Positions 27,693 through 37,533 of a DNA stretch of 37,533 nt are shown here, in pieces. The stretch spans positions 1-37,533 of the IMG/VR virus record IMGVR_UViG_3300048687_000098; one strand, written 5' to 3'. Position 1 is the first letter of the stretch. Every line of letters begins with the position of its first letter. A model generated the notes under the pieces. It ran no database searches. It worked only from the letters and a program-made list of their open reading frames with translations, and was not told the origin of the DNA. The DNA is from a virus. A program made the position numbers and the translations under genes.

Positions 27693-27705
27693 AGCCCGGT
27701 ATCAG

Positions 27706-27776
27706 AGCGGACGGAGGGAGTCGAACCCTCATGTCCTCCTCGGCAAGGAGGTGCACTGCCGTTGTGCTACGCCCGC
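27706..27776 (-). tRNA. tRNA-Gly (anticodon GCC)
   Basis: 71 bases on the minus strand fold as a full cloverleaf. The acceptor GCGGGCG pairs with CGTCCGC (one G-U), D-stem GCAC/GTGC, anticodon stem CCTCC/GGAGG around TTGCCGA (anticodon GCC), a four-base variable loop, and T-arm GAGGG-TTCGACT-CCCTC. The discriminator is T and no CCA is encoded. It reads GGC, a frequent Gly codon here. It lies directly in front of terminase and behind a UUCG hairpin. Whether it comes from the host or serves as an attachment site is unknown; no integrase is in the window. Confidence 0.93.
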
Positions 27777-28415: not shown

Positions 28416-28715
28416 TCATCCGAGAGGTGTGTTGAGGTCAGGGACGACCTGGATCTGCCAGGTCAGACCCTCAGCCAGCCCGAACAGCGAGCCGGTGCCG
28501 TCCACCTCGTTGGCGACCCACTTCACGTGATCCTTGAAGCTGGAACGGCTTCGGAAGGAATCGATGATGCTGATGGCGTTCTCCAGGGACTCCGCCGTGG
28601 CTGAACGCTGCACCTCCATGTTGTCAGGTGGGGTGCCTTTGCGTAGTTCGATGGTGTAGTGGTCGTACACAGGGTGCTCCAGATCGAGGGTCAGTTGTTC
28701 GTCAGGTATTGTCAT
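28416..28715 (-). CDS. Small protein with clamp-binding-like N-terminus
   Basis: 99 residues from MTIPDEQLTLDLEHP at 28715. A longer frame to 28751 is rejected because a good promoter ends seven bases before this ATG. QLTLDL at residues 7-12 fits the hexapeptide sliding-clamp-binding pattern QLxLxL, as in DinB polymerases. The rest is a mixed fold (YDHYTIELRKGTPPD, AISIIDSFRSRSSFKDHVKW, GLTWQIQVV). The gene appears to be a leaderless first gene of a transcript toward 27881. Function unknown. Confidence 0.6.
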   Translation of the reverse strand: MTIPDEQLTLDLEHPVYDHYTIELRKGTPPDNMEVQRSATAESLENAISIIDSFRSRSSFKDHVKWVANEVDGTGSLFGLAEGLTWQIQVVPDLNTPLG

Positions 28716-28722
28716 ACTGCCA

Positions 28723-28751
28723 ACCATACCGAATGTTTGCCTACCCTTCAA
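28723..28751 (-). promoter_or_regulatory. Promoter for a leaderless start at 28715
   Basis: On the minus strand TTGAAG (28746-28751), a 17-base spacer and TATGGT (28723-28728) lie seven bases before the ATG at 28715. Spacing is ideal for a housekeeping sigma factor, and the start site would fall at or next to the ATG. The plus-strand site at 35463-35491 has the same design. Confidence 0.6.
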
Positions 28752-28971
28752 CCCTGGCCAGCAGAACTTGCACGATCTGGTCTGCCTGATCGATCTCCGT
28801 GGCCATTTGCGCGAGCAGCCACCTGGTGTCGATCTCCTTGTGCATCATCCCCCGGAACAGTTCCGCCGTCCGCTGCAAGCTGGTCTCCAACGCCGTTTCC
28901 AGATCCGGGGTCCCCAGCCTCGTGAAGCGGCTCGACTGCTTCGCCGGCTGAGTCGTTCTCCTTCTGATCAC
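28741..28971 (-). CDS. Small helical protein overlapping the previous frame
   Basis: 76 residues from a GTG at 28971, preceded by AGGAAG. It is helical and charged (PDLETALETSLQRTAELFRG, EIDTRWLLAQMATEIDQADQ). Its third codon positions are GC-rich, while those of the competing longer frame are not, so this frame is the coding one in 28741-28970. It may be a separate gene with a long overlap or the C-terminal part of the upstream protein reached by a +1 frame change. Function unknown. Confidence 0.6.
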   Translation of the reverse strand: MIRRRTTQPAKQSSRFTRLGTPDLETALETSLQRTAELFRGMMHKEIDTRWLLAQMATEIDQADQIVQVLLARVEG

Positions 28972-29209
28972 GGCCCCATCTTCCTATCTCGGTCGGCCGG
29001 AACATCAGCCCTGAGTGGAGGGCCTCCCGGTTGTAGCGGAAGGTGCCCAGGTGCAGCCAGTGCTTGTGTGATATGCGGATACGAAAGGCGCGTATGGATT
29101 GACGAAACGGCGGCAAGTCCTCGACCAACCAGGTTCTGGAGATCAACGATCGGTCAGGAGCATCTCGCTCGACACCCCAGTAGATAGGGATGCCCCGGAT
29201 GATGATCAC
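28748..29209 (-). CDS. Unknown protein; only the N-terminal half looks coding
   Basis: 153 codons from a GTG at 29209 overlapping the upstream TGA. Residues 1 to about 80 look real (IPIYWGVERDAPDRSLISRT, FRIRISHKHWLHLGTFRYNR). Beyond this the frame becomes Gly/Asp/Ala-rich with poor third-position GC and is overlaid by the coding frame of the next gene. Either the C-terminus is unusual, or a +1 frameshift (natural or from sequencing) joins the two frames. No domain is recognised. Confidence 0.5.
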   Translation of the reverse strand: MIIIRGIPIYWGVERDAPDRSLISRTWLVEDLPPFRQSIRAFRIRISHKHWLHLGTFRYNREALHSGLMFRPTEIGRWGRDQKENDSAGEAVEPLHEAGDPGSGNGVGDQLAADGGTVPGDDAQGDRHQVAARANGHGDRSGRPDRASSAGQG

Positions 29210-33270: not shown

Positions 33271-35280
33271 ATGTCCAGACGGTGGGTCCCAGCGATTGCG
33301 CTAGCTGTAACGAGCATCTTCTCGACGGCGAGCCTGGCGACTGCTTTAAACGCTCATCCGGAAACGGTTGACGACGATGAGACGACAACGACGCAACCGT
33401 CTCAAGAAGAGCAGCCCCAACAGCAGGAAGAGCAGCCCCAGGAGCAGGCCCAAGTAGAGAACCAAGCTCAGGCCCAGGTCGAGGATCAGTCCGACGACCA
33501 GGACCAGGCTGACGATCAGGACGAGCAACAGTCTGACGACGATCAGCAGGTCGTACAGGAGCAGCAGGTTGTGCAGCAGCCTGACGAGCAATTGCTCCCG
33601 ATTGGCGGTGGTGACAACGAACCAACCACGACCCACGTCCACTACACCACCACCACCCATGCCGCCACGACGACCACCCAGCCCCATGGTGACGACGATG
33701 GCACGACGACCACCACCTCAGGTGGCGCAACGACCACTACCAGTGGTAACACAACGACTACCGCTGGCGCGACGACCACGACTGAGGGCAAGAAGGTCTT
33801 CGTCTGCAAGTACGTCGGCACGCCAGGTGTCGATGAGCGGCTCCAGACGGGCAACAACCCGATCAGCGTCGACTACAAGCCCGGACGCGAACCCGGCAGC
33901 TACTTCAACGACTCCCAGGGCCGCAGCTACTCGCTGGCCTACGACGTTGGCCAGGACGAGCCTGACGTAGACGAGTGTCCCCCACCCGATACCGGTGGTA
34001 CAACCACGACATCAAGCTCCACGTCCTCTACCACCACCTCTTCGGTCCCCGGTACAACTACGACGACGACATCACCGTCGAGTACTACCTCCACAACCTC
34101 GCCAAGCTCGACCACTACGACCACGACGCCGGGATCAACCACTACGATCCCCCGGCCCAGCCTGTTCGCCGTCCCCGCCGTACCGTTGTGCCTCGAAGGC
34201 CAGGCGTTCGTGTCGATCACGTTTGGCCTGCGCCCCGACCTGGCTGGCCAGACCGGCCTCCTGAGCTTTAGTCCCCAGGGCACCTCGGTCAACCTGGTCT
34301 TCAATTCGGGCGGCACGACCAACGTCCCCTGGCCGGCAGGCGGCGGCAACATCACGCTGCTGACCTACACGCTGGGCGCCGAGACGGCCACGGCCGGCCC
34401 GTTGACATTCCCCGAGGGCTGTGTGGCGGTGACGACTACCACAACGACGACGCCGGGTACTACAACTACATCCTCGACCACTTCGACTACCGCGCCGAGC
34501 ACGACGACCTCCACCACGTCGCCTACGAGCACGTCTACGTCCACCACGACGGTGGCCCCGACGACGAGCACCTCGACTACCACTACCCTGCCCCAAGGAA
34601 CGACAACGACGACGGGGGTGACGACATCAACGACAAGTACCACGACCACGGTCCCGGCCACTACCACGTCCACTACGACCCCGACGAGTACGAGTTCGAC
34701 ATCCCTCCCCGGCCAGTCAACGACGACGACTTCCTCGACCTCCCCATCCTCGACCTCGACCAGTTCGACCGTCGCCACGACGAGCACAACGCTTCCTGAG
34801 GAGTTCGAGTTCGGAGCGGCGGCGTCGGTCTGCGTGGGTGAGGTTCCGGTTATCCGCATCGCCTTCGAGAACACATTCCCGGAGTTGGCCGGCCAGATGG
34901 GCACGTTGACGATGCGTGACATCAATGGCAACGTGGTGGGCACCGTCCCGCTCGTCTACACACCGGGGACCACGGCCGACGTGCTCTACCCGGGCAGCGT
35001 GATCAACGCTGATGGGTCGATCGCAGACGTGCCGGGTTGGATCCTGACCGGCGACGGCTTCTGGATCCGTGACCCCAGTGACGAGTTCCTCCGTGAGGGC
35101 ATCGCCCTGGAGTACACGGTCAACCCGACCGCCACGGCCTTCGTGACCTACCCACCGGAGTCGGCGGCTTGCGCCAACCCCAACGGGCCGTTCCCGCCAG
35201 GTGCACCGGTTGTTCCTCCGGGTGGCCCGTTCGAGCCGATCCCCGTGGGGCCGGCGCCAGTATTGCCACCAACCCGATGA
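33271..35280 (+). CDS. Secreted mucin-like Thr-rich protein with duplicated beta domains
   Basis: 669 residues, preceded by GGAAAG. A signal peptide (MSRRWVPAIALAVTSIFSTA, to about 25) is followed by a Gln/Glu/Asp-rich stretch (about 45-115) and a Thr-rich linker. Next comes a small Cys domain (KVFVCKYVGTPGVDERLQTG) ending near 235, then further Thr/Ser linkers. These separate two related domains, CLEGQAFVSITFGLRPDLAG near 305 and CVGEVPVIRIAFENTFPELA near 525, followed by a Pro/Gly-rich end. There is no sortase motif or C-terminal membrane anchor. Such architecture is typical of actinobacterial, especially acidimicrobial, surface proteins, so host origin is likely. Possible roles are a cell-surface decoy, superinfection exclusion or a virion attachment; none is proven. 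Confidence 0.75.
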   Translation: MSRRWVPAIALAVTSIFSTASLATALNAHPETVDDDETTTTQPSQEEQPQQQEEQPQEQAQVENQAQAQVEDQSDDQDQADDQDEQQSDDDQQVVQEQQVVQQPDEQLLPIGGGDNEPTTTHVHYTTTTHAATTTTQPHGDDDGTTTTTSGGATTTTSGNTTTTAGATTTTEGKKVFVCKYVGTPGVDERLQTGNNPISVDYKPGREPGSYFNDSQGRSYSLAYDVGQDEPDVDECPPPDTGGTTTTSSSTSSTTTSSVPGTTTTTTSPSSTTSTTSPSSTTTTTTPGSTTTIPRPSLFAVPAVPLCLEGQAFVSITFGLRPDLAGQTGLLSFSPQGTSVNLVFNSGGTTNVPWPAGGGNITLLTYTLGAETATAGPLTFPEGCVAVTTTTTTTPGTTTTSSTTSTTAPSTTTSTTSPTSTSTSTTTVAPTTSTSTTTTLPQGTTTTTGVTTSTTSTTTTVPATTTSTTTPTSTSSTSLPGQSTTTTSSTSPSSTSTSSTVATTSTTLPEEFEFGAAASVCVGEVPVIRIAFENTFPELAGQMGTLTMRDINGNVVGTVPLVYTPGTTADVLYPGSVINADGSIADVPGWILTGDGFWIRDPSDEFLREGIALEYTVNPTATAFVTYPPESAACANPNGPFPPGAPVVPPGGPFEPIPVGPAPVLPPTR

Positions 35281-35462: not shown

Positions 35463-35491
35463 TTGTCATACTGATGTTGTTGAGATATGGT
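35463..35491 (+). promoter_or_regulatory. Promoter for leaderless start at 35499
   Basis: TTGTCA (35463-35468, 5/6 consensus), a 17-base spacer and TATGGT (35486-35491) are followed after seven bases by ATG at 35499. The design is the same as at 28723-28751. An ATG at 35487 lies inside the -10 and cannot be the start if this promoter is used. Confidence 0.65.
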
Positions 35492-35498
35492 GGCGGCC

Positions 35499-36194
35499 AT
35501 GACAGCCACCGCTGACGACCACCACGACCCCTCCGTGATCAACGAACTGCTGATCGACTTCCACCAGAAGCTCCTCAACCAGTGGAACGCCGAAGCCGAG
35601 GCTGACCAGTTCATCGCTGAGATGCGTACCTCACACCCAGAGGCCTTCGCCCTGTGGGTTGAGGATCACGTCGTGGACATCGTGGTGCGCTTCCTGCGTG
35701 ACCTGGAGCGTCGAGATCGTGACGCCGCCCGCAGTCTGCGCAAGAAGCAACTGATCAAGACCCGTGCCATGCAGCACCTGCGTGAAGAGCGGCGCCGTGA
35801 AGCCGAAGCTCGTGGCGAGACCTGGGATGAGACCGAGGATCTGAACGATGAGGCCAACGAGGTGCAGTCGATCTTCGAGCTTGTCGTCAACGCCACCGTC
35901 GATGGTGTGACCAAGCGCATCGGTGCCTGGACCGCCGAAGACATGAAGTACATCAGCCGCCAGTACTTCAAGGTTGGCGCCGGCTTCATCCGTCAAGGTG
36001 AAGTGGTGAACACCCTGGCCGAAGTGTTCGACACCAAGCGCCAGTTGCTGTTCCGGAAGGCCATCGCCGTTGGTAACACACGTGACGCCCAGAAGTACAG
36101 CGATCCCACGCTGACAGTGGCGGAAGTTCTGACCGAAGAAGAGGTCACAGAGATCTGGGTCGACAACGACTCAGAAGCACAAGCAACACCATAA
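35499..36194 (+). CDS. Charged helical protein of unknown function
   Basis: 231 residues from MTATADDHHDPSVINELL at 35499; the frame also opens at 35487, within the promoter. The N-terminal ~120 residues are helical and charged (DIVVRFLRDLERRDRDAARS, MQHLREERRREAEARGE), the middle (SIFELVVNATVDGVTKRIGA) and C-terminal parts (YISRQYFKVGAGFIRQGEVV, VAEVLTEEEVTEIWVDND) mixed. There is no recognised domain. It is followed after 15 bases by the next gene, and the two form one unit between promoter and terminal hairpin. Probably an early or regulatory gene pair, by location. Confidence 0.65.
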   Translation: MTATADDHHDPSVINELLIDFHQKLLNQWNAEAEADQFIAEMRTSHPEAFALWVEDHVVDIVVRFLRDLERRDRDAARSLRKKQLIKTRAMQHLREERRREAEARGETWDETEDLNDEANEVQSIFELVVNATVDGVTKRIGAWTAEDMKYISRQYFKVGAGFIRQGEVVNTLAEVFDTKRQLLFRKAIAVGNTRDAQKYSDPTLTVAEVLTEEEVTEIWVDNDSEAQATP

Positions 36195-36209: not shown

Positions 36210-36986
36210 ATGACCATGGAACAGGAACAGACCAAGCGACACTTGGAGCGTGACACCAGCCGCTCTGTGTTTGCCAAAGAGCGGGAGAAGGTGTGGGGAT
36301 ACTGCTTCGATGTCGAGGTCGAGGTTCACTCGATGCTCGGCGGCGTTCCGTCCGATCCCAACGTGCGCCGGGGCTGGCTGATGCAGCGCCTCTCCCCTGA
36401 GGGTGAGCGCAACAACGCCAAGGACCAGCGCCTGCTGGAACTCATCGAGAAGGCCGTGGCTGAAGGCAAGACGGCCGATGAAGCTGCAGACAGCCTCTCG
36501 GTGAACGGCTTCGTGCGCGATGCCAACGGCGGTCTCAACTTTGAGGGCCGCTGCGTGAAGGCTGGGATCAAGGAAAGCTTCAGCATCGCCCTCGGCGGCG
36601 GTCACCTCAAGGCCCGTGGTTGGGGTGCAACGAATAAGGGGCTGAGCGGCTTCGTTGCCGAGCACATCCAGATTCCGGTTGACCTCGTACCGTTGTATCA
36701 AGCTGACGGAGTAACACAATATACTCAGCCCGATGGCATCGAGCAGCGGTTCGTCTCAACCTTCCGTGGCCAGAGCATCAGCTATTCCGAACGGTTGGAC
36801 CTCGCCGTGATGAAGTTCCTCGTATTGAGCGACTGGGACTTCGGTGACAACTGGGCAACCATTTGGGCCTTGGGCGAGGAGAACGGCATCGGCAGCATGA
36901 GGAGCCAAGGGGCGGGAAGATTCATCGTCACGAAATGGGAACCTCGCAAGCCGGTTAAGTCCACCGTGGTAGAGCGCCCGATCTGA
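36210..36986 (+). CDS. Unknown protein with Gly-rich C-terminal loop (RAMP-like feature)
   Basis: 258 residues, with CGGAG before the ATG. The N-terminus is charged, then FDVEVEVHSMLGGVPSDPNV and a strand-helix pattern. Central residues read GFVRDANGGLNFEGRCVKAG and GHLKARGWGATNK. Near the C-terminus GIGSMRSQGAGRFIVTKWEP has the G-x-x-R-x-x-G-x-G-R-F layout of Gly-rich loops in RNA-binding repeat-associated (RAMP-like) folds. This is only a local likeness; nothing else points to CRISPR. It is co-transcribed with the 35499 gene and ends ten bases before a strong hairpin. Function unknown. Confidence 0.6.
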   Translation: MTMEQEQTKRHLERDTSRSVFAKEREKVWGYCFDVEVEVHSMLGGVPSDPNVRRGWLMQRLSPEGERNNAKDQRLLELIEKAVAEGKTADEAADSLSVNGFVRDANGGLNFEGRCVKAGIKESFSIALGGGHLKARGWGATNKGLSGFVAEHIQIPVDLVPLYQADGVTQYTQPDGIEQRFVSTFRGQSISYSERLDLAVMKFLVLSDWDFGDNWATIWALGEENGIGSMRSQGAGRFIVTKWEPRKPVKSTVVERPI

Positions 36987-36996
36987 CGACATGATG

Positions 36997-37037
36997 TGAT
37001 ACCACCCTTTGCTTGGCGGAAGCAGGGGGTGGTATCA
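36997..37037 (+). terminator. 18-bp hairpin after the 35499-36986 unit
   Basis: Bases 36997-37014 pair with 37020-37037 over 18 positions, with two G-U pairs, and a GGCGG loop. The outer arms are TGATACCACCC and its complement, which contain the recurring GTGATACC motif. There is no T-run after it. Its place ten bases behind the stop supports a terminator. The outer dyad might also be a protein-binding site. Confidence 0.7.
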
Positions 37038-37080: not shown

Positions 37081-37533
37081 AGCGACAACACGACTTCCCG
37101 CCTCGCCCCGACCCCGTACGACACAAGTCGTCCCTGATCCGACTTGCCTCGCCCCCTCTTCTCTTAACGTGCCCCTCCTGACGAGCCAACCCCAACCCGG
37201 CCGCGTCCCCTCGGCTCCGACTGGTCTACCCGTCTCTTGCTCAGTCCGACCCGCAACGACTTGCCAGGCCTCGCCCGCTCCAACACATCTCTGCCCCGCT
37301 CCGACGAGCCGTCACATCTCGGCACGGCCCTGGTCGCCCTGACCCCACCCCGCTCATAGCCGACTTCCCTCGTCAGCACGCCTCTGCTCTACTCGTAACC
37401 GACCAGCCTCGCTCGCCCCGGGCCTGCCCATTTCCGCCCCATTCTGACTACTCTCCCCTGGCCCAACCTGATCTTCTCGCACCTTCACGACTACCCCCCT
37501 CAGCCCCCGCCGCCTCAGTCCCCGTCTCCCCCG
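37081..37533. other. C-rich, G-poor stretch without convincing gene, to window end
   Basis: About 450 bases with strong strand asymmetry. In 37141-37200, for example, C makes up about half and G about one sixth. Plus-strand frames are broken by stops or lack a start; a 71-codon minus-strand frame (37164-37379) is Arg/Gly/Ser-rich and looks like a shadow of composition. Short words recur irregularly (CCGACTT, CCTCGCCCC, TCCGAC), but no exact repeat of useful length or regular period is visible. Possible meanings are a Rho-utilisation region, a replication or packaging region, a structured RNA, or a poorly assembled end. Confidence 0.5.

Follow-up and report, generated by a model that had tools for sequence, protein, structure and literature searches.

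The gene-free, C-rich region that closes the window, the whole 37,533-base virus record analyzed here, is very probably the guide-RNA array of a VIPR-like system, located just behind a gene for a RAMP protein and most likely read from the same strand, as judged from its sequence, a predicted protein fold and analogy with a published system. VIPR (Viral Interference Programmable Repeat), described in 2026 (PMC13142463, bioRxiv 10.64898/2026.04.26.720920), combines a phage-borne RAMP protein with guides, the vrRNAs, in which GGY and NN alternate, according to the main text of that report (PMC13142463). The corresponding parts of the window are arranged as follows.

35487-36194, plus strand: gene for a 235-aa protein, candidate accessory protein (vap) by position only
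36210-36986, plus strand: gene for a 258-aa protein, predicted RAMP (Cas7-like) and Vipr-like, with the glycine-rich loop NGIGSMRSQGAGRF
36997-37037, plus strand: hairpin between the RAMP gene and the array, -32.5 kcal/mol, z -5.9 as plus-strand RNA
37083-37533, plus strand: guide-RNA-like array of NN-S-H-C pentanucleotides, open at the contig end, supported by autocorrelation, a cyclic model and Viterbi decoding
37083, 37140, 37218, 37247, 37257, 37302, 37361 and 37400: CGAC separators
37179 and 37445: TGAC separators

An earlier note on this DNA had described an abrupt change behind the hairpin to a plus strand of about half C and little G, unlike anything else in the window, and both observations stand. 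Positions 37081-37533 have base fractions of A 0.141, C 0.492, G 0.181 and T 0.185, and the best-fitting change point in composition is 37094. With a GC skew of about -0.47, it exceeds every other 450-nt segment of the window; next comes -0.27, within a Thr-rich gene at 34.3 kb. RNA folding, which the note had also proposed, showed that the plus strand of this terminal region is the most weakly folded in the window, with folds no better than those of shuffled sequences. According to the note, a conserved coding frame in relatives would make the region a gene; codon models in six frames, 3-base periodicity and protein searches all indicate that it is non-coding. The codon models were trained on the genes of the window itself and on genes of relatives that are rich in G. 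The possibility that the minus strand carries a G-rich gene was considered and rejected, as no open frame, periodicity or homologue was found. G-quadruplexes are not in excess over composition in the region, and Rfam gave no match in it or in four of the other loci described below (L253, L256, L258 and L263).

The region is repetitive in a specific manner. The earlier note had reported recurring words at irregular intervals; the recurrence is real, with four copies of CGACTT (0.22 expected from dinucleotide shuffles) and 18 14-nt near-repeats (4.1 expected), and the intervals turn out to follow a five-base register. The unit has a period of 5, NN-S-H-C, in which N is free, S is C or G, H is any base except G, and the final C is nearly invariant. 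The autocorrelation of C reaches z 4.1 at lag 5 and z 3.5 at lag 10, a cyclic five-state model gains 58.8 nats (at most 18.1 in shuffles), and among periods 3-9 only 5 stands out. In a pentamer scan of the window, the 12 best plus-strand stretches all fall within the terminal region, while the highest-scoring stretches listed for the minus strand are all below 0. Viterbi decoding places the starts of tracts after 37083, 37140, 37179, 37218, 37257, 37302, 37361, 37400 and 37445; the well-formed tracts contain 5, 7, 8 or 11 pentamers, with 11 in the one after 37302, and the last continues to the contig end, so that the array is visible only up to 37533. An exact-word scan of viral contigs with the 26-mer at the contig end gave no match. 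CGACTT..GCCTCGCCCC was rejected as a word shared across viral contigs, its matches being scattered and the two most C-rich of them coding.

The 258-aa protein is predicted to adopt a Cas7-like RAMP fold. Its AlphaFold2 model is of moderate quality (pLDDT 71.6, pTM 0.67, nine sequences), and all of the top 50 Foldseek matches in the PDB are CRISPR RAMP-containing complexes or RAMP proteins, including type VII Cas7, Csm3, Cmr and Cas7-11 subunits, with 8z4j_J as the best match (E 1.2e-5, prob 1.0). The BFVD match is annotated as "Cas system-associated RAMP superfamily protein" (E 6e-9). Sequence profile searches of the family gave weak matches, several of them to Cas5, Cas6, Csx10 and Csm4. The alignment of the homologues contains a glycine-rich loop near the C-terminus, G-x-G-x-x-R-S-x-x-x-G, kept in all of them, as well as a GGVPxDP motif.

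Scans with the 258-aa or the 235-aa protein alone as the query found no relatives, and the 258-aa gene has no relative within the phage group of the window. One named phage, Microcystis phage Mae-JY09, encodes a homologue of the 258-aa protein, and a two-sequence profile built from this pair matched eleven further viral contigs. The same profile detected no homologue, at that sensitivity, in 84,980 bacterial and archaeal species genomes; every homologue found is in a viral record, and the proteins are 235-310 aa long. Ten loci were examined, namely nine other viral contigs, of which L259 and L262 are near-identical copies, and Mae-JY09. The 500 bases that follow the RAMP gene are C-rich and G-poor (skew -0.33 to -0.47) in nine of these loci, and in the tenth, L255, the array precedes the gene. 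Since C-rich, G-poor and gene-free DNA adjoins the homologues, on their own strand, in all ten loci, whose GC content spans 46-72%, the terminal region travels with the RAMP gene. An assembly artefact, another option in the earlier note, is very unlikely because the same element recurs in independent contigs. Upstream arrays on the strand of the RAMP gene are located at L253:3541-3920, L254:3551-3870 and L255:3401-4040, the last with separators of the TTCGAC type.

The register also recurs. Lag-5 autocorrelation of C is present in all nine arrays tested, and in most arrays the cyclic model gives one position that is C at 0.93-0.99, two following positions that are near random, then a C/G-leaning and a G-avoiding position. 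L254 and L259 are poorer fits to the cyclic unit, and the arrays differ in how strongly the leaning and avoiding positions are biased. Tracts are about 5-16 pentamers long, with CGAC and sometimes TGAC between them. Because CGAC or TGAC separates tracts of pentamers, most CGAC spacings are 4+5m, or 3+5m in some arrays; pooled over the arrays, the spacing modulo 5 departs from uniform with p 1.8e-17, and the other frequent words in the arrays show no such departure. C-rich controls without a RAMP-like gene were negative in the pentamer scan.

These properties can be compared directly with those of VIPR as given in the main text of PMC13142463. In both, a phage RAMP protein with a glycine-rich loop adjoins non-coding pentanucleotide tandem repeats of three fixed and two hypervariable bases on the strand of the protein gene. 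The tract lengths are similar (9-16 pentamers in PMC13142463, 5-16 here), and the homologues found here are all in viral records, as VIPR systems are mainly in viruses and proviruses (PMC13142463). Applied to the locus of Escherichia phage SUSP1, which represents type II of the seven VIPR types (PMC13142463), our five-state method recovered G-G-T-N-N on the vipr strand; the vipr gene was placed at 28474-29061 from its size, position and glycine-rich loop, an assignment made in this analysis. An hhalign comparison of the 258-aa family with the SUSP1 protein aligned the loop region, at a probability of 2% and an E-value of 0.022, which is not significant.

The differences concern the triplet, the packing and the protein. 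The held triplet is S-H-C here and G-G-Y in VIPR, and literal GGY is absent here. The arrays are densely packed, with many short tracts joined by CGAC or TGAC. Viterbi decoding and folding revealed no structured 3' tail between tracts, whereas the characterized type II systems have a constant structured 3' tail after the repeats, a feature that the main text does not state as defining all seven types (PMC13142463). The proteins are 235-310 aa long, compared with 195 aa in SUSP1. Since the main text allows for the fixed triplet "or a related consensus" beside GGY, and for staggered arrays and several architectures (PMC13142463), the system is here called VIPR-like and treated as a C-rich variant, with no type assigned. 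A C-rich variant of VIPR, cut by the contig end, is the best label, its newness being judged against the main text of PMC13142463. Whether it forms a separate noncontiguous RNA-guided type, with a Cas7-like RAMP protein of 235-310 aa, a C-rich NN-S-H-C code and dense arrays joined by CGAC alone, is in our estimate an evenly balanced question.

Other known systems resemble the locus in fewer respects. The RAMPs of class 1 CRISPR-Cas (Cas7, Csm3, Cmr) share the predicted fold and the glycine-rich loop, but here the repeats are five bases long with two-base variable parts, and there is no CRISPR repeat array. Identical direct repeats of about 20-40 nt with longer spacers, as in CRISPR, were not found in the terminal region, where repeats are short and imperfect, and no other cas genes were seen within the window. 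TIGR-Tas, in its published outline, likewise places short interspersed guides, in an array carried by a phage, next to a single protein gene; here, however, the PDB search links the protein to RAMPs, and the array follows a pentamer register. Tas proteins have a Nop domain, and their arrays are built of dual-spacer units of about 36 nt.

VIPR function has been demonstrated for SUSP1, and RNA expression for the SUSP1 and P. fulva systems; its guides bind double-stranded DNA via the NN pairs, with one base skipped, and competing phages are repressed (PMC13142463). If the array of the window works as the published VIPR does, it would be transcribed together with the upstream plus-strand genes and then cut into tracts. 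The RAMP protein would coat the RNA of each tract and keep the three fixed bases of every pentamer from pairing, so that the free NN pairs would face double-stranded DNA, skipping one base for each pair, and genes of competing phages or mobile elements would be silenced. The fixed triplet of this variant would be the C-rich S-H-C in place of GGY. A target search of 6.2 million bases (both strands together) under skip rules of 0-2 nt gave no match clearly above control, and exact matches with a skip of 3 were rejected as arrays matching themselves. With a 1-nt skip, one tract of L257 (L257:4781-4825) matches 16 of 18 NN positions in the RAMP gene of L258 (L258:4328-4353), a match that is not significant alone (expected 0.42). 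Some VIPR guides are reported to be directed against other VIPR systems (PMC13142463).

The minimal VIPR locus includes an accessory gene, vap (PMC13142463), and the 235-aa gene may encode such a protein, on its position alone: it shares the strand of the 258-aa gene and lies 16 bases ahead of it. The 235-aa protein matches no family, searches of phages, viral contigs and the RAMP homologue loci gave no homologue of it, and its single-sequence structure model is all-helical and poor (pLDDT 55.5). The hairpin at 36997-37037, already indicated in the earlier note, is confirmed by its plus-strand stability and is weaker on the minus strand (-25.4 kcal/mol). No terminator-like T run or U-tract was found at it, and a processing site or a partial termination site is possible.

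An alternative, which we regard as unlikely, keeps the guide array and takes the working RNA from the opposite strand, as G-D-S-NN units whose separate promoter would be located past the contig end. The G-rich backbone of such an RNA would resemble the published ones, and the unit of L256, read in this direction, is GG-N-NN (nearly GG-NNN), closer to the published GGY/NN. Against this, the SUSP1 repeats are on the vipr strand, and the C-rich strand is the gene strand in all the other loci, where genes often continue along that strand past the array. The third fixed base on the plus strand is moreover a pyrimidine, as in GGY.

That the region is a degenerate pentanucleotide satellite with no role as a guide is highly improbable. 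Slippage can expand short tandem units, and the units here are degenerate; decay, however, would be even over the unit, whereas here the nearly fixed C is followed by two almost random positions. The same pattern also recurs in phages that differ widely in composition, and the arrays are tied to a single gene family.

The reading put forward in the earlier note, a large Rho-dependent terminator in which the hairpin is followed by C-rich, unstructured RNA that loads Rho and ends plus-strand transcription, has even less probability in our estimate. Its compositional part holds: like rut sites, the terminal region is C-rich, G-poor and weakly folded plus-strand RNA, untranslated and behind the end of a gene, and C/G exceeds 2 in 93% of its 78-nt windows, compared with 1.5% elsewhere. 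What Rho loading does not predict is the pentamer register, the CGAC spacing, the freedom of the NN positions and the linkage to the RAMP gene; period, tract structure and gene linkage are absent from rut sites, and the L255 array is upstream of its RAMP gene. For an actinobacterial host, it would also count that mycobacterial Rho reportedly prefers purine-rich RNA (PMC12288462). Rho may still be bound by the array incidentally; the region is probably an array of small guide RNAs rather than a transcription stop. The long noncoding RNA also listed in the note comes close to this, guide RNAs in an array being the most likely identity of the region. Least probable of all is the replication origin, for which the region would be the flank of a skew-switching intergenic region beside the helicase gene of relatives: the distance from the terminase gene is similar and ten relatives switch from C-rich to G-rich, but the region lacks the conserved core motif, nothing aligns, the helicase-linked regions are negative in the pentamer scan, and the loci of the RAMP homologues are in other phages.

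The guide-array reading has consequences beyond this record. A different fixed triplet in phages of 46-72% GC would be a natural experiment on how RAMP proteins recognize an RNA scaffold. Dense arrays would provide many guides per phage, from which targets, and hence the opponents of these phages, could be predicted. On this reading, a C-rich, gene-free stretch of a phage genome can be a guide array even though it is easily mistaken for a terminator or for assembly noise. If the separate type is real, the triplet of VIPR would not be tied to GG, and protein and triplet would have co-evolved.

The record contains tail, capsid, portal, terminase and endolysin genes. Among named phages, Streptomyces phages such as BRock have the closest terminases (48-49% identity), and the terminase relatives lead to several contigs of about 100-118 kb that form one phage group with the window. 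Adjoining the terminase gene, a tRNA-Gly(gcc) is located at 27705-27776 on the minus strand. The 669-aa product of the gene at 33271-35280 combines a conserved C-terminal domain with long low-complexity stretches rich in Thr, and the position and strand of this gene vary in related phages.

The helicase-linked region of these relatives is a separate element. In L115-L124, it is a non-coding region, about 0.6-1.1 kb long in most, downstream of a phrog_62 helicase gene (for example, L098:4457-5397), and its composition turns from C-rich to G-rich at a conserved core (CCATTAAGA, a GC hairpin, GTAGCACCC and GTAGTG). Ordinary codon preference explains some of its upstream skew, and it may be an origin-like or a control region. 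The similar distance from the terminase gene is why the terminal region was first taken for its flank; this was rejected, as the core is missing, the comparison with related genomes suggested in the earlier note yielded no alignment, and the helicase-linked region has no pentamer register.

In a close relative (G001, L086:7834-8033), the contig ends about 40 bases beyond a hairpin that follows a small plus-strand gene, and this end, too, is located upstream of the terminase gene, at a distance of about 13.6 kb. The palindrome TTGCTAGCAA, with at most one mismatch, is scattered over records G001-G004 (loci L083-L105) at about 0.06-0.17 per kb and is clustered in the helicase-linked region of G004, for example at L101:3085-3757; it is possibly a repressor or stoperator-like site.
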